This document shows positions 4,940 through 49,900 of a DNA stretch of 64,000 bases, piece after piece. The position numbers and the translations under genes were made by a program. Below the pieces are notes generated by a model. That model was not told the DNA's origin, ran no database searches, and saw nothing but the letters and a program-made list of their open reading frames with translations. The stretch lies in the NCBI GenBank assembly GCA_902728285.1, contig CACVBU010000878.1, positions 980,025 to 1,044,024 of the forward strand, written 5' to 3'. How positions within the stretch are numbered: the stretch's first letter is position 1; every line of letters starts with the position of its first letter. This stretch comes from Clytia hemisphaerica (Eukaryota > Cnidaria > Hydrozoa > Leptothecata > Clytiidae).

Positions 4940-4967
4940 AAGTTATGGGGCATACTGGAGAAGTGGG

Positions 4968-5205
4968 ACGTGGGACGGTGGGACGCTAAGGTGGGACGGT
5001 AGTGGGACGCTAAGGTGGGACGGTAGTGGGACGCTAAAGTGGGACGGTAGTGGGACGTAAGGTGGGACGGTAGTGGGACGCTAAGGTGGGACGGTAGTGG
5101 GACGCTAAGGTGGGACGGTAGTGGGACGCTAAGGTGGGACGGTAGTGGGACGCTAAGGTGGGACGGTAGTGGGACGCTAAGGTGGGAAGGTAGTGGGACG
5201 CTCTT
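4968..5205 (+). repeat. 24-bp minisatellite, left arm of fold-back element
   Basis: About nine to ten copies of GTGGGACGCTAAG followed by GTGGGACGGTA, a 24-bp unit made of two related halves, with few base changes (CTAAAG once, GGGAAGG once, one short copy). Confidence 0.92.
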
Positions 5206-6671
5206 TTATATGTATTTTGTCTTTTTCTATTTATAATACAGTGAAGAGGGACAGGTCAAGTACTTATAAACAATACACAGATCGATCGAAATGTTTTTGA
5301 CTTTTTTCATAGTGAATGGATTATAAAATAATAACATAATCAATTTGATCGAAGCTACAAAGACACAAAAAGCTAGTCAGTCAGATAAATCAATTTCTGG
5401 CTCCTCCTCTTGGCTCTTTTTGTGTAATTCAATTGTGTAATTTACAGAGCAATTTCAACAATTCTAACGCTCTTTTTAGCCTAGAGGCTAAATGTCTAAA
5501 TCTGCGAGAACTGATTTTAAAGAGTATCATATAAAAAATGAACATTCCAATCACAGGGATTTCCCCAGAGACAAGATGTTTACTTTTCGAATTCAAAATT
5601 CGAATGAAAGGAAAACATTCGAATCGACAACAAAGGGTTACACCATCAGCATGAATAATAAAAGTATCCACATTGTTCACGTGAAAGGGAAAACCCGTGA
5701 GGTGAAACATACCTGTGACGCCCAAAAACTTCTTTCATCAAATTTTATGAAGTTGACTAGGCTAAAAATTTTTAAAGTCGCGTGTCCATCGTTGAAAGTT
5801 GTTTTTAGATTTTTATTGAGTTTTTTGGTTTTATTTTCATTTGTTTGTGCATCATTTTTTTTTCGAAATACGTTATCGCAGACTTACAGTAGTGTTCTAT
5901 AAATTAACTAGCCAAACCAAAAGAAAAGGAGCCAGAAATTGATTTCACATTTTTTCATTAAATAATTATAAAGACAAAAAGACAATATTCTAATAAAAGA
6001 GCGTCCCACTTGAACGTCCCACTACCGTCCCACTCATGCTGAGGGGAAAGCCCTTTATTACAATTAGAATGTCTTTTCATTCGAATTCAAAATCGTGTTT
6101 CTGGGGAAACCCCTCTGATTCGAATGATTTCTTTGTTATTCTCAATAAATATAAACTCTTCGAAATATGGTCAGGCTGCTGCTGGACCACTTTTGTAAAA
6201 ACCTTAATGTGAAGAATCTAAAACCTATTGAAACCTGTTATATATGATTAAAGGGGGTAAAAAAGTTTTACTGGCCATTAGGTTTTCCCAGATTTAGCCT
6301 AGACAAAGTTGCAAAGGATTGAAAGTGTTGGAAAATAATAAAATTGTTCTATAAATTAGACAATATGAGCCTGAAGATAAGGAGCCAGAAATTGATTACA
6401 CATTTTCCGGTGTTTATTTCTGACTCGCACGGATATTGCTTGGTAGCTTTTCGATCAAACATCCAATTTGAATATTATTATTATTCGTTTATCACCCACT
6501 ATATGATAAAAAAAATCAATATATATATTTTGGCCGAAATCCTGTGTAGGTTGAAAACTGAAGAACAGATCAGTATATGTGTTTTGTGAAAGTATTCATT
6601 TACTCATATTGAGTTCTTTTTTACTCGTACATAATTATCAGAGAAGCAAAAATACAAAAGCCTTACGAGAG

Positions 6672-7015
6672 AGCGTCCCACTACAGTCCCACCTGAGCGT
6701 CCCACTACCGTCCCACCTTAGCGTCCCACTACCGTCCCACCTTAGCGTCCTACTACCGTCCCACCTTAGCGTCCCACTACCGTCCCACCTTAGCGTCCCA
6801 CTACCGTCCCACCTTAGCGTCCCACTACCGTCCCACCTTGAGCGTCCCACTACCGTCCCACCTTAGCGTCCCACTACCGTCCCACTTTAGCGTCCCACCT
6901 TAGCGTCCCACTACCGTCCCACCTTAGCGTCCCACTACCGTCCCACCTTAGCGTCCCACCTGAGCGTCCCACTCGAGCGTCCCACCTGAGCGTCCCACCG
7001 TCCCACGCCCCACTT
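6672..7015 (-). repeat. 24-bp minisatellite, right arm of fold-back element
   Basis: The inverse of the left arm: AGCGTCCCACT followed by ACCGTCCCACCTT, repeated about 13 times, with half-units missing near the outer end (6885-7010). The right arm is about 100 bp longer than the left, so the arms have expanded independently. The open frames on both strands here are repeat artefacts. Confidence 0.92.
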
Positions 7016-7312
7016 CTCCGGTATGCCAAGTTATGGGACCTTAGACATGGTCATTATTATACGTTAGGTAGATTTCAGAACTGCCTGTTAATAAAATTAA
7101 TTTTTTATCTTTCTTGATAAGTTACGGAGAAAAAGTACTTTATGACGTCATAAAACTTAAACTTTGAATATCTCAAAAAGTACTAATCAAAAGATTTTGC
7201 CTGGAGGGGAGCATTTTGAAAATTTTGTCTAAATTTATTTTTGCACTCTACGCACTATAAACACTAAAATGATTACCACATCAACTTTTACATTCGGGAA
7301 AATCCCTGCAAT

Positions 7313-10802: not shown

Positions 10803-12194
10803 CTTGGTCGAACTGTTCACTTGATCGTTGAACCGGTGGTCGAACCGGTCACTCGATCGTTGAATCGGTCGTTCGATCGTTGAACTCCTGTGAAAATGGG
10901 TGTCTAAACAATTAAAAATCTCAATTTGGAGAGTACCCTTTACCTTTAAAAAAATAAATTTTTCTCCTTCAGAGAGTTTTACCCCTTATATTCAAAAAGC
11001 TATATCATTTTAAGTTTGCCCTCTTTTTGGAAAATTATTCTTTATAATCATGCCACACAAGGGTTGGTTGAAATTTTGGTTAACTTGGAAAGATATGGAT
11101 CTTTGTTTGTTTTTTTGTTTGCATAAAAAATTAGTCATTATAACAGGCATTTTTTCCTTGATTCCCCGCAATAAAACCTTTTTATTTTTGTTTGAAACTT
11201 TGCATGCGCGTTCTTTAGGTACGGTACCACGCCAAAAGAAAAGGTTCACTGCAAAAAGAAAATGTCCACGGCAAAAAAAAAAGTTCAAAAAAATTTAATC
11301 TTGGCGAGAACTAACTTTGGCAAGTCAGCGGATTTTTTAATTTTGGCGAGAACTAATTTTGGCGAGTCAGCCATTTTCTGAATTTTAGCAAGAACGTATT
11401 TTGACGAATGAAATACTAAAACTTCCCTTATTTACCGTACTTTCTCATGAAAAGTATATGAAAAGAATAAAATCAAGCCAAAAATTAATTTTGAATCATC
11501 AAAGTGGTTTGTTAAAATTGTTCAATGCTAACGTTCTCTCTAAACTCACAGTCCTAGTTGTTAAAGGTCCCTATTTTTAAGACACGTTGCGATGGGAACG
11601 AAACAATTTTTCCATGTCCGCCAAGGTTTGATTAACTTTTTGGTATTTGTTCAACTTAATATATGCTTGTATCGACCTCGTTCGCTCGTATTGGACCTCG
11701 CTTCGCTCGTTCCAATACGTCGCGAACTCGGTCGATATTTTGCCAGAGAGACCGGCTTTTCGGTTAATAATCCATAATTACATAAGAATCTTGTTTTTCC
11801 ATTTCATCGTGGATATTCTTAACTTTTTGGTCTAAATCATCCTAAAATATTCTTAAGGCATTTTTAGGTTAAAATATAAACCCCATCTTAACTTAACACC
11901 AAGAATACGAAGGAAAATATAAGAAAATTTTGTTGACGCTTTGTCATTTACTGATAACAAAGGGGTGATTTACAGATTAACAAGTTGAACATGATTGGAC
12001 CTAAAAATTGCTGAAAAGCTTGCTTGATGAGGAACCATGATAAGAAAAAGTGCCATGGTAATAATGATTAACGTTTTGTTTGACGCGGGTTTGACGCTGT
12101 CAAAGAGATATTTTTGGACCCAGTTTCCAAGGGCAAAAAATATAATCTAAAGACATTCACCCTTCAAGAAGGATAAAAATATCTAATTTTAGCC

Positions 12195-12524: not shown

Positions 12525-12769
12525 TTTTAGCCAAACCCCCATGGAATAAGATTTTTTTTTGAAAAATCCGGCTCTGTCACTCTGGGGTTTATAGTCAACA
12601 CTGTGCAAAAAATCGTTTTTTTTTTCCATCTCAAGAAATCTGAATTATCAGCAAGACTAGCGTCCGTATCTTTTTTTCTCCCCAAACTTTTAGAAAAATC
12701 TTGGTCGCGTGGTGTTGTATGATAACGTTCCGTGGGAAAAAAAACAAACAAGTTTCTTCACCAGACCAA

Positions 12770-13086
12770 TTCGATGACCGATCCGACGACCGATTCGACG
12801 ACCGATTCAATGACCGATTCGACGACCGATTCAATAACCGATTCGACGATCGAGTGACCGGTTCGACCACCGGTTCAACGATCGAGTGGACGGTTCGACG
12901 ATCGAGTGACCGGTTCATATCGATCGAGTGAACAGTTCAACCACCGGTTCAACGATCGAGTGAACGGTTCGACCACCGGTTCAGCGATCGAGTGAACGGT
13001 TCGACCACCGGTTCAACGATCGAGTGAACGGTTCGACCACCGGTTCAACGATCGAGTGAACGGTTCGACCACCGGTTCAACGATTT
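12770..13086. repeat. Tandem array, 15-bp then 32-bp units
   Basis: 12770-12850 repeats ACCGATTCGACG at about 15-bp steps. From about 12840 a 32-bp unit with ACCGGTTCAACGATCGAGTG repeats about seven times. The shorter unit looks like a fragment of the longer one. Small open frames across it are artefacts. Confidence 0.85.
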
Positions 13087-24049: not shown

Positions 24050-24401
24050 GCAATTTTTTCATCAAGATTCAAGTCATGTTTTGATATTCTATCGAGTTCA
24101 ATCTTGTTTTCATTCGGCCATGTTTTTGTATTAACAGCATCTTTCCAGCATTCGCTTTTGGCCAGCTGGTAGGTTTTTTGTTTCTTGTTTTCTCTTTTTG
24201 CCTTTTGGTCTTTGTGTGCCTTTCATCCGGGTCTTAGGACGTTTATTTTCAACTCAGATTTATTTAAGTTTAGTTTTTCTAAGTTCATTATTCATAAAGC
24301 ATAGCATCTACTTTCATATTTTCAATCAATTTTTCGCATGTCAATAGGTCTAGCCTAGATTCTCAATTTTATTTCAAAAACTTAGTTTTGTCACTTTTCT
24401 A
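24050..24401 (+). repeat. Direct repeat copy 1 (about 350 bp)
   Basis: Nearly identical to 24982-25341, from TTTCATCAAGATT to TTGTCACTTTTCTAT, with a few small indels. The ends are not TG...CA and I see no primer-binding site, so this may be a tandem duplication (unit about 930 bp) rather than a pair of LTRs. Confidence 0.85.
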
Positions 24402-24981
24402 TCACCGCTCCTCCCCGCCAGGCTTTCAAGCCAAGGTATGTTATTGGTATAAAGCCAAGTCTCGAAAAGTTTTACCTCAATGTAAAAGCTCAAATTAAAC
24501 TCCTGGTGTATACGTGATTTGAATATTGGAAAGGCTTCAGTCTTCATTTGGCTCAAATAAATCAATTTGTTTATTGGGGGAGTGTAAAGTTAACAACTTT
24601 TAGTCAAAAAAATTTTCAAATAATAAACACAAATATTTTATTTCAATTTTCAAGTATTTCTCTTTCAGTGTCATTTTGTTCGTCAGCGTCTTTGTTTTTC
24701 CAGCGTTTTCCTTTGTTCTGCAGTGTCTTGTCTCCCTTGTGCGTCATCCGTTTCTTTTGTTCAGTGTCTCTTGTGCATTCTCTTTTCAGTTTTTGTTTCC
24801 CGTATTAATTATTATTTATCATTATCTTTTGTCTCTAATTTTAAGTAATTATGTACGAATTCTCAAATGACATTTTTATAGTAATATCAATTTAACTAGT
24901 TATTAATTTTTGTTTGATAAAAAAGACCTGCGTTTTCTTTTTTACACATCAGTTAAGAGTATGTATGAGTGGAGTTGACAT

Positions 24982-25341
24982 CAATTTTTCATCAAGATTT
25001 AAGCCATGTTTTGATATTCTATCGAGTTCAATCTTGTTTTCATTCGGCGATGTTTTTGTATTGACAGCATCTTTCCAGCATTCACTTTTGGCCAGCTGGT
25101 AGGTTTTTTGTTTCTTGTTTCTGTTTTTGCCTTTTTTCTTTTGGTCTTTGTGTGCCTTTCATCCAGGTCTTAGGACGTTTTATTTTCAACTCAGATTTAT
25201 TTAAGTTTAGTTTTTCTAAGTTCATTATTCATAAAGCATAGCATCTACTTTCATATTTTCAATCAATTTTTCGCATGTCAATAGGTCTAGCCTAGATTCT
25301 CAATTTTATTTCAAAAACTTAGTTTTGTCACTTTTCTATTT
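24982..25341 (+). repeat. Direct repeat copy 2 (about 350 bp)
   Basis: Second copy of 24050-24401. The 580 bp between the copies is T-rich and has no recognisable gene. An LTR miniature (TRIM) is an alternative reading. Confidence 0.85.
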
Positions 25342-25510
25342 TTCAGTTTGAACTCTTGTCAATAAATCATCAATATCAATCAAACTCTTGAGTTCCAAAC
25401 ACAGCCCTTCTCTGCGCTAAGGCTACACGAGGCACTTTGTTTATTTTTGAGTTCTTTCAGCCCAGCCATTTTGTGCTTGTTTAAATTTCTTATTGTTGAT
25501 CTTTCTGTTA

Positions 25511-25676
25511 TGCGCAGATATGTAATTTTTGCGCAGATATGTAATTTCTGCGCATATATGTAATTATTTTGCGCAGATATGTAATTTCTGCGCAAATATG
25601 TAATTATTTTGCGCAACTATGTAATTTTGAGCTGCGCAGATATGTAATTAAATTTCTGCGCAGATATGTAAAACAC
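25511..25676 (+). repeat. Outer left array, about 20-bp unit
   Basis: Eight copies of GCGCAGATATGTAATT with variable 3- to 8-bp linkers (TTT, TCT, ATTTT, TTGAGCT). Confidence 0.9.
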
Positions 25677-25769
25677 GACCTTTTGGTTTTTTTTTGAAAA
25701 ACTGACTCGATTTTAACATTAATTTTTCAAAGTATTTAATCGCATTGTTCTTGGACTATGACAGACATT

Positions 25770-27190
25770 TGGCGATTGTTGTTTTTCTTATAAGCATCAT
25801 CTTTATAAGAAACAAGTCAATATCTTTTTATCAAAGTGATACTGGCTTTCGGCGATTGGTTCTATCAAAGCAACTAGGGGACAGTGCTAAATGACTTATA
25901 AGCATCAACTTTATAAGAACACGATTCATAACTCTTACATAAACCAATAGATATTAGCTTTTGGCGTTTGGTTCTTTCAAAGCAAATATAGGAATGTGCT
26001 TAAGCTAGAAAAATGTATTTTTCTTATAAGCATCAAATTTATAAGAACACAACTCATAACTCTTAAACCAATGATTATTAGCTTTTGGCGTTTGGTTCTT
26101 TCAAAGCAAATATAGGATTGTGCTTAAGCTAGAAAAATGTATTTTTCTTATAAGCATCAACTTTATAAGAACACAATTCATAACTCTTAAACCAATAGAT
26201 ATTAGCTTTTGGCGTTTGGTTCTTTCAAAGCAAATATAGGATTGTGCTTAAGCTAGAAAAATGTATTTTTCTTATAAGCATCAACTTTATAAGAACACAA
26301 TTCATAACTCTTAAACCAATAGATATTAGCTTTTGGCGTTTGGTTCTTTCAAAGCAAATATAGGATTGTGCTTAAGCTAGAAAAATGTATTTTTCTTATA
26401 AGCATCAAATTTATAAGAACACAACTCATAACTCTTAAACCAATGATTATTAGCTTTTGGCGTTTGGTTCTTTCAAAGCATATATAGGATTGTGTTTAAG
26501 CTAGAAAAATTTATTTTTCTTATAAGCATCAACTTTATAAGAACACAATTCATAACTCTTAAACCAATAGATATTAGCTTTTGGCGATTGGTTCTTCAAA
26601 GCAAATATATAGGATTGTGCTAAGCAGAAAAATGTATTTTCTTATAAGCATCAACTTTATAAGAACACAATTCATAACTCTTAAACCAATAGATATTAGC
26701 TTTTGGCGATTGGTTCTTTCAAAGCAAATATAGGATTGTGCTTAAGCTAGAAAAATGTATTTTTCTTATAAGCATCAACTTTATAAGAACACAATTCATA
26801 ACTCTTAAACCAATAATCATTAGCTTTCGGCGATTGGTTGTATAAGCAACGAGGGGACTGTGCTTAATCAGGAAATTTTTGTTTTTCTTATAAGCATCAA
26901 CTTGATAAGAACACAATTCATAATTCTCCAAACAATAGATATTAGCTTTCGGCGATTGGTTCTTTCAAAGCAAACATATGATTGTGCCTAAAAAAGAAAC
27001 ATTAATTTTTCTTATAAGCATCAACTTGATAAGAACACAATTCATAACAAACCAATGATTATAAGCTTTCGGTGATCGGTCTTTCAAAGCATAAATAGGA
27101 TTGTGACTAAAAGAGAAACATTTATTTTTCTTATAAGCAACATTTTATAAGAACACAATTCATAACTTTTAAACAATATTTGTTAGCTAT
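25770..27190 (+). repeat. Inner left array, about 123-bp unit
   Basis: About twelve copies. Each unit holds TTGGCGTTTGGTTCTTTCAA, a TATAGGATTGTGCTTAAG stretch, and the hairpin word CTTATAAGCATCAACTTTAT. Central copies (26090-26780) are almost identical and outer ones diverge, as expected for an array homogenised at its centre. Confidence 0.92.
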
Positions 27191-27939
27191 TGTTTGATAA
27201 ATCAAATCTCTGAAACTTAGAAAATTCTTATAAACTAATGTTAGATTTAGGAAATTTCTCTATTTCTTTCGATAGAGCCGTTGCAGAATGCTGATTCCAC
27301 ATAGAAAAAAAAAAAAATTTCTCTCCTTTTAGATGGCTTGAAGTTGAATATTTTGCCTTGGTTTAATTTATAGGGGGAAAATAAAAAAGGCATCTAATTT
27401 TTTTAAATATCTTTAACAATCAGTGTCAAAATATTCCTGAAATATATAACATTCTTCAGAATTTAAGTTCGAATCACACCTTCAATAACCCCACTCTATT
27501 TCATCGGATAATTCAATCAAATATAATGACTTTGCTCGTAGAACCATGAAAAGGAAAAGGAAGTTTTTTATCATAAATTAGTCCATGTTTTGGTAGAGAC
27601 AACCAATAAAATTTTACTTTATTTCACGTAATGTAAGAAATGCAATCCATATCTTACAAAATCAATAAAGTTTACCTAGATGCGAGATCCGAGTCGAGGT
27701 TTTATCGAAGATCTCATTATGTTGTACTTTTTTTATAGGTTGTACTGAATCTTTGCTTACATGCTAGAGGGCGCATCTTTTAAAAGAATTTGATACCTCT
27801 TTTTTTTTTAGGTTTCGCCTAAAGATATTCTTAACATGTTCTCCCTTGTTCACTTTGTAATAACTACCGTTTTTTTCAAATAAACGCCCTGGCGTCTTTT
27901 TAATTTTAAGACTTTCGGAGGGGTGTTTATTTGAGGGTA

Positions 27940-28900
27940 TATACCATTCTTACCAAGAGTTATTGATTCTCATAAAGTAGTGCTTATGGGAAGAAGTACT
28001 ATGCTCATAATATTATAGCCTTTCCTGTTACTTTGTAAACTAATTACGAAGGTAAATGACCGTCTATCAAGAGTTATTGCTTTGATTCTTTTAAGTAGTT
28101 GCTTATAAGAAAAAATAAATATGCTTATCTATGCGCCGTCCTTTTTACTTTGTAAGAATCATTACCGAAGGGTAATGACCGTCTATCAAGAGTTATGCTT
28201 GATTCTTATAAGTATTGCTTATAAGAAAAATAAATTATACACATATATGCGCCCATCCCTTATTTACTTTTTAAAAACTAACAAAACGAAGGGTATCACA
28301 GTCTATCAGAGTTATTGATTGATTCTTATAAAGTAATGCTTATAGAAAAAAATATGGTCATTATGTGCCGTTCCTTGTTTACTTTGTAAGAACTAATTAC
28401 CGAAAGGTATATGGCCGTCTATCAAGAGTTATTGCTTTGATTCTTATAAAGTAGTTGCTTATAAGAAAAATAAATATGCACATATTATGCGCCATCCCTT
28501 ATTTACTTTGTAAAAACTAACAACCGAAGGGTATATCACAGTCTATCAAGAGTTATTGATTTGATTCTTATAAAGTACATGCTTATAAGAAAAATAAATA
28601 TGCTTATATTATGTGCCGTTCCTTGTTTACTTTGTAAAAACTAATTTCCGAAAGGTATATGGCCGTCTATCAAGAGTTATTGCTTTGATTCTTATAAAGA
28701 TGATGCTTACAAGAAAAATAGTCATATCCATTTTAGGCGCTATTCCATGTTTGCTTTGAAAGAACCAATCATCGAAAGTTAAAAACTTACTGGTTGATAG
28801 TTATAGGATCATGATGCTTTAAAAGAAAAAAAATAATTATTCTCATTTAAGGCCCTATTCTATTCCATTCAAAAGTTATGGATATTTTTCTTATAAAGTT
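27940..28900 (-). repeat. Inner right array, about 118-bp unit, inverted relative to the left array
   Basis: About seven copies marked by GTCTATCAAGAGTTATTG, TTCTTATAAAGTAGTTGC and TTATTTACTTTGTAAAAAC. The TTCTTATAAAG...GCTTATAAG part is the reverse complement of the hairpin word of the left array, while the rest is related only loosely. Confidence 0.88.
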
Positions 28901-29032
28901 GATGCTTAGAAGATATTACTCCTTGTATTTGATAGATATTAGCTAAAATACCTAAGTCTTAAAAAAGGTAAAAGTAATGGTAAAATCTATCAAGGGGTAC
29001 CATTGATTTAAAGGTTTAATTCGCGCAGTTTT

Positions 29033-29167
29033 ACATTATCTGCGCAGCTCGAAAATAATAGGCGCGCAAAATAATTACATATTTGCGCAAAAATTACATA
29101 TCTGCGCAAAATAATTACATATATGCGCAGAAATTACATATCTGCGCAAAAATTACATATCTGCGCA
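29033..29167 (-). repeat. Outer right array, about 20-bp unit
   Basis: Six to seven copies of TTACATATCTGCGCAAAA, the inverse of the outer left array. Confidence 0.9.
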
Positions 29168-30057
29168 CAACACTTTCCTTTACAATGATTTTATAATGCA
29201 AGTCTCTAAAACATACTGAGAAGTAAGTATTAACGACAAACCAATACAATTTACCATTAAAGATGCTACATTACTGATCTCTTGATAAAAAAAAATAGTC
29301 ATCAAATACGACAGAGATAGAACAACAGAAGTTCAGATGTTATCATTCCAGCCGCGGCTTTCTTATACTATGCGTAAAGTAATCGTTTTGCAACCAATTT
29401 TCCAAAAGCTTTATTATTATCTTTAAGGTTAAACCTCAAATGTTTATAACATAAAACCTGGTTAACGGTATATTAACGAGATACCAGTGGATACCCCTCA
29501 AAGCCACACAACGCCCTTAAAACCTCTTAGTCACCAAACTTAATTTAATATTGTATAATTCACTTTTTTACAACCTCTTCTGAATATACGATCATAAAAT
29601 TATTTTAAGAATTTCAATTATCGCAAATTGTCGTAAAATTCGAAGTTATTCAAAACTTTATCAAAAAACCCTTCAAAAAATCAAGTTTTTTGGACCTAGA
29701 GATTACACAATTGAATTCAAGGTCATAAAACCTATACTTTTTAGGTACCTATACTTATGGTAGTATTTTCTTCTTCATGGTTAGACTTCAAAGTTCTATT
29801 TTATCAACATGAAAGGGGCTTCGGAACGAGCGTTCCGTTTTCGCAAAGCGAAGTATCGTTAACTCAAGAAAGTTAGTAGCATATTGTTTTGGGAATAGAT
29901 TTCTAGCACGTATTTGATCAATCGAACCACGGTTCAGCACCTGAATTGCAATTTCAAAGTTTCAGTAAGATGTGAGAAAGGGGTCGATGTTTGAAGGTTT
30001 TGAGGTGTATTTTGATTTTAACGTACATAGTTTTGAAAATATTTAGGTACCAATGAT
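29168..30057. other. No gene seen
   Basis: AT-rich sequence between the fold-back element and the LINE. It might hold a decayed 5' part of the LINE, but no endonuclease motif can be read before about 30060. Confidence 0.4.
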
Positions 30058-43900: not shown

Positions 43901-46900
43901 TGTCCTTACCAATCTAAAACTATACCTAGATAGATGCAAAGGCTGGGGAAGAGATAAAGGCCAATTATTGGTTAGTCATATTTCTCCCCATGACCCGGTG
44001 TCATGGTATTGATGTTGAAAAATTCAAGGGGCACTCAACACGGTCAGTTTCTTCCTCAAAGGCTAAAAGTTTGGGTATTTCTACCAAGGAAATTCTGGAA
44101 CGAGGTCATTGGACTCGAGAGTCAACATTTCAAAAGTTTTATTTCAGGCCAGTAGATGGGGAGAGTTCGGGCGATAGTTTTCAACGGAAACTTCTTAGCA
44201 TCAGTCATAAAGGGCTTTGAAGAGAGGTCGATGTGGGTTTCAGTTATGACTTTTATTTCTTGCCAGTCATAGCGGATATTCCAGTATTTATCTGGCGGAG
44301 ATTTTATCGTCATAAAATTGAGGATTGTGCAAGGGCGCGAAGCGCCCGTAGTGCAATCCAGATTTTATAAGATAAAATCGAAGCCTAAAGATAAATACTG
44401 CCCACCCAATCCCTACCCGATTATAGCGACATTGATATTTATTTCCTTTTCTTCTATTTCTTCAGGTTATGGGAGTCGTGGTGGTTACAACAAATGATTT
44501 GTATCTATTTTGAGTTTTTAATTAAAAGAATATACGATATCAGTTCAATCGAACTTATTCATGTTGTCTTTTACTTTTTGTATTTCCTTAATGCTTGCTC
44601 GAAAGCTTTAACTTTAGTACCTTTTTCTTAGTTTGTGATGGGATCGAAGTCTTGTTGCCTTTTCTTTAAAAAAATTTGAAAAATTTCGACTAATTTATTT
44701 TTTCAAAAGATGCTTGGTTTGAGTTATTTCATTTATTTATTTATTCCAGTATTTATCTTTAGGCTTTGATTTTATCTTATAAAATCTGGATTGCACTACG
44801 GGCGCTTCGCGCCCTTGCTCAATCCTCAATTTGTTTACACGTAAATCGCGATAGTGTGAAGGGTATGAAAAAGTGGTCTCACAAGTCTGAAGGAATGAAA
44901 ATTCGTGAAAAGTATGCAAAACTATGTAATTATCGTCACGAAATTCTGCCAAAATAATCTCCACCGTTGAGGTATGATAACAAGATGAATGCGACTCCTT
45001 CAGTAAACTTATTACGATGGAGAGTCTCTCTAACTCAAACAAAAGCTTCTTTGACGTCATTTTGAACACAGAAAGTGAAACGTATCAACAGATGTACCTT
45101 TTGAACATTTTGTGTACAGAAAGCATTTATGTTTCTTTGAAAGAACAAAATATTTTTTCTATAAGAAAAAATTTATAGAAAACAATTTTAGTGTTTTTAA
45201 TTTTTCGAATTGAGAAAATTGAGTGTGTGTTCACATACCCTGTATCCGCCCCTGAAGATCAAAGAAAGCCGCTTCGAAAGTATTTAAAAAGAGTTTAACG
45301 GCAATTTATGTTTTTTACCGTATACTATTTTAACTATGAGCATTGTACTATAGTGATAGTGAAATGCTTTTATGTGAGAATGAAATATTTTGATGTGAGA
45401 ATGAAATATTTTGGTGTGAGAATGAAAGGTTTTGGTGTGAGAATGAAATATTTTGATGTGAGAATGAAAGGTTTTGGTGTGAGAATGAAAGGCTTTGAAG
45501 TGGGAATGAAAGGTTTTGGTGTGAGAGTGAAAGGTTTTGGCGTGAGAAAGAAAGGCTTTGAAGTGGGAATGAAAGGTTTTGGTGTGAGAATGAAAGGTTT
45601 TGGTGTGAGAATGAAAGGCTTTGAAGTGAGAATGAAAGGTTTTGGTGTGAGAAAGAAAGGCTTTGAAGTGGGAATGAAAGGTTTTGGTGTGAGAATGAAA
45701 TATTTTGATGTGAGAATGAAATGCTTTGAAGTGGAAATGAAAGGTTTTGGTGTGAGAATGAAATTTGGTGAGGTTTTTGTGTGAGAAATGAAGGTTTTGG
45801 TTGTGAAATGAAGGTTTTTTGGTGTGGAATGAAAGGCTTGTGTGAGAATGAAAGGTTTTGGTGTGTGAAAGAAAGGCTTTGAGAATGAAGGTTTTTGGTG
45901 TGAGAATGAAAGGCTTTGATGTGAGAATGAAAGGTTTTGGTGTGAGAATGAAAGGCTTTGATGTGAGAATGAAAGGTTTTGGTGTGAGAATGAAAGGCTT
46001 TGAAGTGGGAATGAAGGTTTTGGTGTGAGTGAAGTTTGTGGAATGTTTGTGTGAGAATGAACGGTTTTTGGTTGGAGAAATGAATGCTTTGAAGTGGGAA
46101 TGAAAGGTTTTGGTTGCGAGTGAAAGGGTTTTGGCGTGAGAAGAAAGCTTTTGAAGTGGAATGAAGGTTTTGGTGTGAGAATGAAAGGTTTTGGTGTTTG
46201 GAAAGGCTTTGATGTGAGAATGAAGGTTTGGTTGTGAGAATGAAAGGCTTTGGTGGGAATGAATGAAATTTTTGTGGGTGCATAGGTTGAGAATGAAATG
46301 AGAATGAAAGGTTTTGGTGGTTGATGAATGTGAATGAAAGGTTTTGGTGTGTTTTTGAGTGAAAGGTTTTGCGTGAGAAAGAATGAAAGGTTTTGGTGTG
46401 AGAAGGTGAAAAGGCTTTGAATGAAAGGTTTTGGTGTGAGAATGAAAGGTTTTTGTGGTGTGAGAATGAAAGGTTTTGGTGTGGGAAGTGAAATGGTTTG
46501 GTTTGTGTGAGAGTGAAGGTTTGAAGTGATGAATGAAATCTTTGAAGTGGGAATGAAAGGATTTTTGGGTGAGAATGAAAGGTTTTTGAAGTGGGAATGA
46601 AAGGTTTTGGTGTGAGAATGTAAGGCTTTAAAGTGAAAATAAAAGGTTTTGGTGTGAGAATGAAAGGTTTTGGTGTGAGAATGAAAGGCTTTGAAGTGGG
46701 AATGAAAGGTTTTGGTGTGAGAATGAAAGGTTTTGGTGTGAGAATGTAAGGCTTTAAAGTGAGAGTGAAAGGTTTTGGTGTGAGAATGAAAGGTTTTGGT
46801 GTGAGAATGAAAGGTTTTGGTGTGAGAATGAAAGGCTTTGAAGTGGGAATGAAAGGTTTTGGTGTGAGAGTGAAAGGTTTTGGTGTGAGAATGAAAGGTT

Positions 46901-49900
46901 TTGGTGTGAGAATGAAAGGTTTTGGTGTGAGAATGAAAGGCTTTGAAGTGAGAATGAAAGGTTTTGGTGTGAAAATGAAATGCTTTGAAGTGGGAATGAA
47001 AGGTTTTGAAGTGAGAGTGGAAGGTTTTGGTGTGAGAATGAAAAGTTTTAGTGTGAGAATGTAAGGTTTTTGTGTGAGAATGAAAGGCTTTGATGAGAAT
47101 GACAGGTTTTGGTGTGAGAATGAAATGCTTTGGTATGAGAATGAAAGGTTTTGGTGTGAAAATGAAAGGCTTTGAAGTGAGAATGAAAGGTTTTGGTGTG
47201 AGAATGAAATGTTTTGGTGTGAGAATGAAAGGTCTTTGTGAAGAGACAATGAAATGTTTTGTTGAGAAAATGAGGTCTTTGAGAGAAAAAGATGAATGTT
47301 TTAAAACAATGAAGTGCTTTGCTGACAGAATGAAATGTTCAGGTGAGAGAATGAAAGGTTTGGCGAGATAATAAAATGCTTTTATGAGAGAACGAAATAC
47401 AGTGTGTTCCGCAAAAAAGTATACTCAAAAAGTAAAGCGTAGCTCTGAAAAAACTGTCTATATATCGAGCTTAAATTTTAAACCAGCTAAAAGCAATCAT
47501 TAAGCTTTTTGTGGTCAGAAATTCATTGCAAGAGAATTTTCGATTCAAGAGATATCAAGTCATAAGTAAGCAAAGGTGTAGATTTTAAACATCGGAGATC
47601 AGGTAAATTTTTTTATAATTACTTCACTAAAAAGTAACGTTAATTTCAAATTGGAAGAAAGATAAAAAAAATCTAAATTTTTAATGCAAAAGAAAGAAAA
47701 ATTCTTCTTCTTTCCACTGCTGAAAGAATTCCTTTGGAAAAAAAGCCTTTTGTTAATGAGATAATTAATTTACAAGCTGCATAGGTCATCTTTCAAGATG
47801 CAAAGTTTCATCAAATTGACAAAAAAACAGACCTGTCAATCAAAAATTAATTAACTCTTTGGTAATAAAAATGATGCATCTCGACTTTTTTTAAACTCCA
47901 ACAGGGTGTAGTAAAAGCGTCATATCTCACTAAAGAAGAATTGTTCGAAATGAAATTCGGACAGTAGAAAGCTGAATAGCTGTGCTAGTTTTAAAAATCA
48001 TTCAAAACAGATCATCATTTATCTCAAAAGTTGACTTTATTTATTTGAGTATACTTTTTTTGCGGAACACACTGTATTTTGGTGTTGGAATGAAAACCTT
48101 TGGTGAGAGAATGAAAAATTTCGGTGAGGGAGTGAAAAGTTTTGGTGAGGGAGTGAAAAGCTTCTGTGAGAAAATGAAATGTTTCGGTGAGAGAGTGAAA
48201 GGTTTTGGTAAGAGAGTGAAATATTTTGGTGAGAGACTGAAAAGTTTTGATGAGAGAGAAAATGAAATGCTTTGACGAGAGAGCGAAATACTTTGGTTTG
48301 AAAATGAAAAGTTTCGGTGAAAAAATGAAATTTTTTGGCGAGAAAGTGAAATATTTTGGAGAGAAAATACAACTTTTCAATGAGAGAGAGAATTAAATGC
48401 TTTAGTGAGAGAGAGAAAGGTAATAATTTGATGAGAGAATGAAATGCTTTGGTGACAGAGCAAAATACTTTGGTGTGAGAATGAAAAGTTTCGGTGAGAG
48501 AACGAAATGTCTTGGTGAGAGAATGACAGGTTTTGGTGCGAGAGTGAAATGCTTTGATGAGAGAGTGAAATGCTTTGGAGTGAGAATGAAAAGATCTGGT
48601 GAGAGAGAGAGAAGGTTTCGGTGAAAGAATCTAATATTCAGGAGGGAGAATTAAATGATTTGGCGAGAGAATGAAAAGCTTAGGCGAGGGAGTGAAAGGT
48701 TTCAGTGAGATAATGAAAAGCTTTGGTAAGAGAAAGAGAAAGGTTTCGGTGAGAGAGTAATGTTTTGGTGTGAGAATGAAGGGAAGCATACCTGCAATTA
48801 TTTTTCGTTTTGAAGCATCTTCAAGTGCATTTCTTTGATCCTCTGTCAGTACCCTTTTCACAATGATTTCTGAGCCTCCAGCAAAGAGGCGCGGGAATCT
48901 GACATCTACTGAGGCTGACATTACGACAGAGCGAAATGCAGTTTTCAAAACTGTTGTTTTGTTTACATTGCTATTTCTGTTACCCTCTTTCCATTGTATT
49001 TTGAAGTCTTCCCACCATTCACTGCAGCCAGTTTCGAGATCATCTTTAAACATCATCAGCTCTTTACAATCTTTACAATTTATATCTTCTCTTTTATGGT
49101 ATAGTGCAGCAACAACATTGATGAGTACAACCTCTCCGTCTTTCAGTAGATCATCGTTTATAGAAAGGAATGCTTTTGCATTCTCGTTGGCCCTAACCAT
49201 GACATGCTGGATTTTTTCTTCCATGTTTTCTGGTAAAGTTATGAGGAAAATAGCAGGTATTTCAGCAGGATAGAAGATCATAGCATTCCCACCTTGCAAC
49301 AGATGCTCGAAATCTGTCTGAATTTGATTCGGATTAAAACCAATTATACAAGATATCTGCCTGTGAAAATCAACTTTGGACAAAATATACGACTCTTTTC
49401 CTTTCCCGATTTCAACCAATGTTTTTGCAATATGATGATTTGGTGAGTTTTCCTCAAGCTGGTATAATTGGGGTACAACAACGCAGCTTTCCGAAAAATT
49501 TTTTTTGACATAATCACGACAATTAATTTCAGTCAACCGACATTCTTCATTGTCTCCAGTCTGGAAACGGATTAATTTATCTCCACTAGGAGACTTCTTT
49601 AAAAATCTGGAAACGTCTGAGTCGGTTCCAAATGGATGCGATATTAAGGTGATATTTGGAAGCCAACGACTGAGTTGCCTGTGAGGTGTTACTTTGAATT
49701 AAAGAAAAATGCAAGTATCAATGATTTACTGACGAAGACTAAAAGTAATTAAAGGAATATTTTTGGCTGCAGGTGAAGTATTCTTAAGAATATTCTTAAC
49801 ATATTCTTATTCTTGACCGTTTAGAACACGCAGAAGTTAATGTTCATCACGAAGAAATCACTAGAGATTTATAATTAGCGAAAACAATTATGCTTCATTC

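Follow-up and report, generated by a model that had tools for sequence, protein, structure and literature searches.

A locus in the stretch of Clytia hemisphaerica DNA analysed here (the window; 64,000 nucleotides, positions 980025-1044024 of contig C604 in an assembly of 417 Mb and 951 contigs) raises the question of what kind of sequence folds back on itself over 3.7 kb with two nested tiers of arrays in each arm, and how such arrays came to be. An earlier note, made from the letters alone, had placed the fold-back at 25511..29167, with outer arrays of about 20 bp and inner arrays of about 120 bp in mirror order. The fold-back is real, with boundaries that we corrected to 25506-29172 (3,667 bp), and both tiers are mirrored as described: the outer boxes lie in arms (25506-25620 and 29058-29172) that are 97% complementary across 115 nt, and the inner arrays are built of units of about 124 bp. 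Its parts are as follows.

25501..25505, no strand: left target-site duplication CTTTC, an exact 5-bp match to 29173-29177
25506..25671, plus strand: left outer tier, terminus TGTTATGCGCA, 8 GCGC boxes at a spacing of 19,19,21,19,21,23,24
25672..25784, plus strand: left leader, joining outer and inner tier; bases 1-49 of it are part of the query matched by other copies
25785..27190, plus strand: left inner array, units of about 124 bp, 12 hairpin-like words
27193..27960, plus strand: central core, non-coding (open reading frame check and genome matches)
27963..28913, minus strand: right inner array, units of about 124 bp, 248-bp dimer pattern, 8 hairpin-like words
28914..29020, minus strand: right leader
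29021..29172, minus strand: right outer tier, 8 GCGC boxes at a spacing of 19,19,21,19,21,22,19 from the end
End of 29021..29172, minus strand: right terminus TGTTGTGCGCA, read inward
29173..29177, no strand: right target-site duplication CTTTC

When up to 3 mismatches are allowed, the window contains 14 matches to the outer 16-mer where 0.41 would be expected, and none of 100 shuffles reached 14; one of the 14, on the minus strand inside the left array, is taken as spurious. Tandem Repeats Finder (TRF) reported the left inner array at 25895-27192 (period 124, 10.5 copies) and the right one at 27963-28720 (period 124, 6.3 copies), where a 248-bp dimer outscores the 124-bp period (994 versus 860). 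Copies of the word TTCTTATAAGCATCAACTTTATAAGAA, near forms included, number 12 on the left (25785-27153) and, in inverted orientation, 8 on the right (27967-28913). No open reading frame of at least 120 aa overlaps any part of 25506-29172, core included.

Other repeats occur in the same window. A short way to the left of the element, 24055-25339 holds a direct duplication with a spacing of about 930 bp, one 161-nt part of which is 100% identical. At 4949-7027 lies a second, unrelated foldback with 24-bp arrays of the GTGGGACG type in inverted arms; its inverted ends are GGCATACTGGAGAAGTGG.../...CCACTTCTCCGGTATGCC, and genome-wide 149 sites match this end pattern exactly. On either side of it stands AAGTTATGG (9 bp, by eye), which a foldback of the Mutator type would be expected to show. 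Inverted tandem arrays occur as a third pair at 10805-10885 and 12764-13084, with units of the ACCGGTTCGACGATCGAGTG type and no clean ends found. A long degenerate 21-bp tandem array of the GAATGAAAGGTTTTGGT type with a strong GC skew spans 45223-48780, and elsewhere in the window frames resemble, by eye, reverse transcriptase and other retrotransposon proteins.

The fold-back at 25506-29172 is very probably one copy of a family of non-autonomous foldback DNA transposons moved in trans. An exact search of the genome located its 30-base end 114 times (60 forward, 54 reverse) and the reversed control not once; counting by hand among 100 of these 114 matches gave at least 34 convergent end pairs 1.6-8.7 kb apart. 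The termini of the family, TGTTATGCGCA... and ...TGCGCACAACA, are sharp and conserved. We retrieved the 20 other copies that scored best among 40 scored (of 415 candidates), ranked by left-end similarity, and added one copy chosen for its length (contig C214), a 5-kb piece of an end pair on C234, and three chosen for shortness (C49, C635 and C261). Three retrieved copies (L022, L029 and L033), whose right end is absent from the retrieved sequence, were omitted from the duplication count. Among the 22 copies with both ends, the window copy included, 16 are flanked by an exact 5-bp target duplication and three by an exact 4-bp one (L020 AACA, L028 ACAA and L056 AAAC); L052 has one mismatch in five bases, and the flanks of L030 and L032 do not match. 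As a control, left and right flanks from different copies were paired in 462 combinations, of which 3 agreed exactly over 5 bp and 3 over 4 bp. A weak consensus, about NCWGY, emerges from the 16 five-base sites. The family thus has both features of foldback elements: long, internally repetitive inverted repeats, and dispersed copies with target-site duplications. The core (27200-27960) matches 39 other loci among the best 40 of 117 candidates scored, and those matches that could be identified by position are known copies of the element. Two subfamilies were labelled by eye, the window copy falling in subfamily 1 and L034 and L052 being added to subfamily 2.

The left flank of L030 (C308) and the right flank of L032 (C232) are both CTGTG, which fits ectopic exchange between elements. 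This is only a lead, since the reciprocal flanks differ and 3 of the 462 cross-pairings match by chance.

In the outer tier, 17 of 22 left arms carry eight GCGC boxes at 19,19,21,19,21,23,24, and the same exact spacing was found in 8 of 19 right arms; the departures (5 of 22 left and 11 of 19 right arms) are mostly lost or shifted boxes. Of the three short copies, two keep the exact spacing in the right arm and none does so in the left. The majority consensus sequences of the left and right outer tiers differ in 2 columns of about 165. Mean pairwise identity is 0.984 between left tiers and 0.942 between right tiers, while left-right comparisons average 0.961 within a copy and 0.957 between copies; the right-right value being the lowest, the right ends are more worn. 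The earlier note had proposed repeated local amplification within each arm, and for the outer tier this was not borne out, since no arm exceeds eight boxes within the first 210 bases scanned. The outer 16-mer also has a single match in each of 7 viral contigs, taken as chance.

The inner arrays vary in size, the word count of two-armed copies ranging from 2 to 17 on the left and reaching 14 on the right (stricter count). The two inner arrays of the window share the word and differ otherwise, as the earlier note had seen: the left and right consensus units are 65% identical in subfamily 1 and 75% in subfamily 2. With the word removed, the left and right consensus units aligned with a score of 9, above all of 500 shuffles (mean -59.1, maximum -23), and with the word included the similarity is likewise well above shuffles. 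This homology indicates one diverged family and rules against two unrelated satellites, which the earlier note had named as a finding that would overturn its reading.

A phylogeny was built from 317 inner units of 22 copies, anchored on the word (up to 5 mismatches of 27, spacing 100-135); arms were cut at 62% of the length, the left arm of L023 being exempt, and the right arms of incomplete copies were assigned by position. The tree leaves out L053 and L056-L058, and only 2 right units of the window pass the anchor. On this tree the arm label changes once, the 180 left units forming a single clade that excludes the 137 right ones. When left units are labelled by their index in the array, 96 changes are needed, against 128-141 after shuffling, and labelling by copy requires 130 against 142-149; for right units the values are 69 against 91-100 for index and 107 against 108-116 for copy (five shuffles in each test), so that in the right arm grouping by copy is hardly above shuffles. 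Units therefore cluster by index more than by copy, which indicates that much of the array structure was inherited from transposing source copies. Local duplication is also seen: at 98.5% identity or more, units 3, 4 and 6 of L026 match units 8, 9 and 11, units 3 and 4 of L028 match 6 and 7, and units 5 and 6 of L029 match 8 and 9. The central left units of the window, described earlier as nearly identical, are indeed so (4 and 5 are 100% identical, 3 and 6 98%, and 5 and 8 99%), and they are a case of local segmental duplication on an inherited array. The proposed amplification within each arm is accordingly upheld for the inner tier by the arm-private clades and the segmental duplications; as the source of the arrays it falls short, because much of the inner structure is inherited, with index outweighing copy on the tree.

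The earlier note had called the element shared by the inner arrays a hairpin word. Folding of one left unit was little better than that of shuffled sequences (z -1.04; 34 of 200 shuffles folded as well), and a table of stem pairs, covering up to six of the commonest types per pair, contained one-sided changes and no compensatory class. A hairpin structure is thus unsupported, and the element is better termed a conserved palindromic word. The mean major-base frequency of its 27 bp is 0.941, against 0.764 for the rest of the inner unit; anchoring on the word favours a high value, and by eye the word is also near-identical in the unanchored TRF consensus sequences of both arms. The word has 147 exact matches in the genome and occurs in runs of up to seven among the 100 matches listed; with no longer run among these 100 places, the inner unit as a free satellite was rejected.

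The conserved word could mean that the inner arrays are accessory binding sites for a transposase or a host factor, kept by selection. The conservation of the word above the rest of the unit favours this (with the bias of anchoring toward it), as does the precedent of Galileo, whose tandem repeats bind the Galileo THAP domain in the available text of PMC3688188. We consider it somewhat doubtful, given that the number of units varies widely and that the left array is absent from copies at two sites.

These copies, L056 (C49, 1.78 kb) and L058 (C261, 1.89 kb), consist in order of a partial left outer tier, a linker, the right inner array and the right end, and left inner units are absent. The linker corresponds to the core sequence of subfamily 2, with identities of 94-99% to six copies and 86% to L029. 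Both share the same internal junction and linker and lie at different sites with different duplications (AAAC and GGTGT), and the simplest reading of the shared junction is that the one-armed form itself transposed. Its presence at two sites indicates that the left inner array seems dispensable. Since both copies retain the right array, and no copy lacking both inner arrays turned up among those fetched, one inner array may be needed.

An origin in two steps, in which an old foldback with arms of 124-bp units was captured between younger short terminal inverted repeats, would explain why the outer arms are about 99% alike and the inner ones 65-75% (consensus sequences), with a sharp drop at the tier boundary. 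It would also agree with the absence of clear similarity between outer and inner units in six comparisons, in the best of which 21 of 300 shuffles reached the score. The same pattern would, however, also arise if selection or conversion affected only the ends, the core is common to both subfamilies, and no solitary outer- or inner-tier element was seen among the fetched copies. A two-step origin therefore appears unlikely.

Which enzyme moves the family was approached through its termini and duplications. Mutator elements make duplications of about 8-11 bp, and P elements make 8-bp duplications, the range for P and Galileo being 7-8 bp; those of the present family are 4-5 bp long. For Transib and RAG-like elements, with 5-bp duplications and CAC termini, the duplication length fits and the termini, TGTT instead of CAC, do not. 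The end bases are TGTTA on the left and TGTTG or TGTTA on the right (TGTTR...YAACA), in agreement with the TGTNR ends of Ginger elements, and the 4-5-bp duplications also agree with that group; the target preference, about NCWGY at 16 sites, is different from RTATAY (Ginger2) or CCGG/CCGT (Ginger1). The TGTNR ends and the duplication length suggest a Ginger-like transposase, of the retroviral-integrase (rve) class; on these sequence characters this is possible, at somewhat under an even chance. Integrase-core genes (PF24764) are abundant in the genome (the best 150 of 596 candidates were scored), and none lies inside an end pair among the 150 integrase and 100 end matches listed. Two near-identical repeats of more than 5.4 kb with inverted tandem arrays, L054 and L055 (C897 and C939), carry a 509-aa integrase-core (PF24764/rve) gene.

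No transposase between these ends that could be the family's own was found in the fetched copies, whose open reading frames were judged by eye with length cut-offs of 70-80 aa; the longer end pairs examined were those on C781, C214 and, in part, C234, with C165, C850, C882 and C33 left out. Candidates for an autonomous copy were rejected one after another. The 6.8-kb copy on C214 (L052) contains inserts with no transposase recognisable by eye, the first 5 kb (L053) of the 19.8-kb pair on C234 has no recognisable frame among those of at least 80 aa, also by eye, and the 7.8-kb L023 holds a non-LTR retrotransposon (a PHD-like frame and reverse transcriptase, by eye). A transposase domain was recognised between the arms in one copy only, the 8.7-kb pair on C781 (L034 and L036; duplication TACCC), where PF21787 (E 2e-25) lies in a 5'-truncated fragment of a P element. 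We read it as a nested P-element insertion with a deletion and not as an autonomous copy. P-element transposase genes are common in this genome (153 matches, with 150 of 337 candidates scored), among others on C254, C212 and C215.

This fragment could instead be the decayed remnant of the family's own enzyme, the family being a P-superfamily foldback like Galileo, which is assigned to that superfamily in the available text of PMC3573991, and L034 a decayed autonomous copy of it. The position of the P transposase domain between the arms and an end of L018 lying 49 bp from a P transposase match would fit. The fragment is, however, N-truncated and stops within a base of the inverted repeat that belongs to the P element itself. 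It matches, at 98-99.5% identity, a P element on C435 whose ends are different, namely 30-bp inverted repeats of its own; no foldback arrays of either tier were found in that element. Coming from an unrelated P element, the fragment carries little information on the family's own enzyme. The ends of the C435 element show no target duplication, the printed frames of the other fetched copies are unlike P transposase by eye, and duplications are 4-5 bp here against 7 bp in Galileo (PMC3573991, available text); membership of the P superfamily is hence very improbable. The C435 element itself (722300-741900; L047-L049) has its 30-bp inverted repeats about 9 kb apart, with no matching duplication alongside.

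That the structure is an artefact, either a misassembly or a pair of unrelated satellites lying next to each other, found no support and has a practically negligible probability, as the same ends and tiers recur at many other loci with their own duplications, the inner arms are homologous beyond shuffles, and the inner word runs to seven at most among the 100 of 147 places listed.

In the sea-urchin TU elements, the inverted repeats consist of an inner domain and an outer one made of short tandem units of 15 bp, and the duplications are 8 bp long. Sea-urchin foldbacks are cited in PMC4079207, and foldbacks with composite inverted repeats of tandem units are a known kind of element (PMC4079207, PMC3169594, PMC3573991, PMC3688188; here and below, the available text of each), mostly assigned to Mutator (PMC4079207). 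The earlier note knew no described family with this structure; the kind itself is represented by Tetris, Tm1 and Galileo, while the present pairing of tiers was not found described. Our literature search, with most subscription papers outside its scope, returned no foldback with 5-bp duplications and none whose outer block hardly varies while its inner array does, and this combination is an unusual build of a known structural kind. Tetris of Drosophila virilis is likewise non-autonomous with no transposase found, has composite inverted repeats with an outermost domain and variable tandem repeats of about 220 bp inside, and its units group within two of the three complete elements. It differs in its duplications of 8-10 bp, for which Mutator was suggested, in an outermost domain that the text does not describe as a box array, in being known from three complete copies only, and in repeats that also build long satellite arrays, none of which was seen for the present element (PMC4079207). 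Tm1, a Mutator/foldback element of root-knot nematodes, shares multi-motif inverted repeats with tandem units of about 14 bp and dispersed non-autonomous copies; its duplications are 9 bp long, its short units number from 1 to 9 (here at most eight, with the spacing kept in most left arms), and the text describes no 124-bp inner tier (PMC3169594). Galileo is similar in its long repeats, in internal tandem repeats that change independently in each arm, in the multiple transposase sites proposed for it and in chimeric copies with non-matching duplications (PMC3573991, PMC3688188), and differs in 7-bp duplications with a P transposase (PMC3573991) and in internal repeats of about 210 bp, with no separate short-box tier described (PMC3573991, PMC3688188). 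Ginger1 and Ginger2/TDD share the TGTNR termini, with 4-bp duplications in Ginger2 and 5-bp ones in TDD-4/5; their inverted repeats are about 40-270 bp long with no foldback design described, their target preference is another one, and they encode an integrase-type transposase, which was not found in the present element (PMC2836005, PMC10045372).

In the mechanism that we propose, a transposase supplied by another element would recognise the outer tier, the recognition unit being up to eight boxes around GCGCAGATATGTAATT, 19-24 bases apart, at each end. It would pair both ends and move the DNA by cut-and-paste, and the conserved spacing and the near-identity of the outer tiers would reflect this recognition. 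Tn7-like elements, with multi-site TGT...ACA ends, offer an analogous end design. The inner 124-bp arrays would be passengers or accessory sites, gaining and losing units in each arm on its own, through slippage or unequal exchange. Tentatively, and with slightly less confidence than in the enzyme class, the family may be a foldback group beyond Mutator and P, moved by an integrase-type transposase through spacing-conserved eight-box ends and carrying a partly dispensable, arm-private inner satellite tier.

Why some DNA transposons have kilobase-long repetitive arms is unsettled. This family seems to part two candidate reasons, recognition and amplification, within one arm: a recognition tier of short boxes with capped number and conserved spacing, and an amplification tier of 124-bp units whose number and sequence drift on the two sides independently of each other. 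Since the tiers seem separable and natural copies lacking one inner array exist, the question is open to binding and mobility assays. Foldback architecture may also have originated in a superfamily that is not noted for it, and if the reading of an integrase-moved family is true, these elements would be a natural case in which a constrained recognition tier is separated from a free-running amplification tier.
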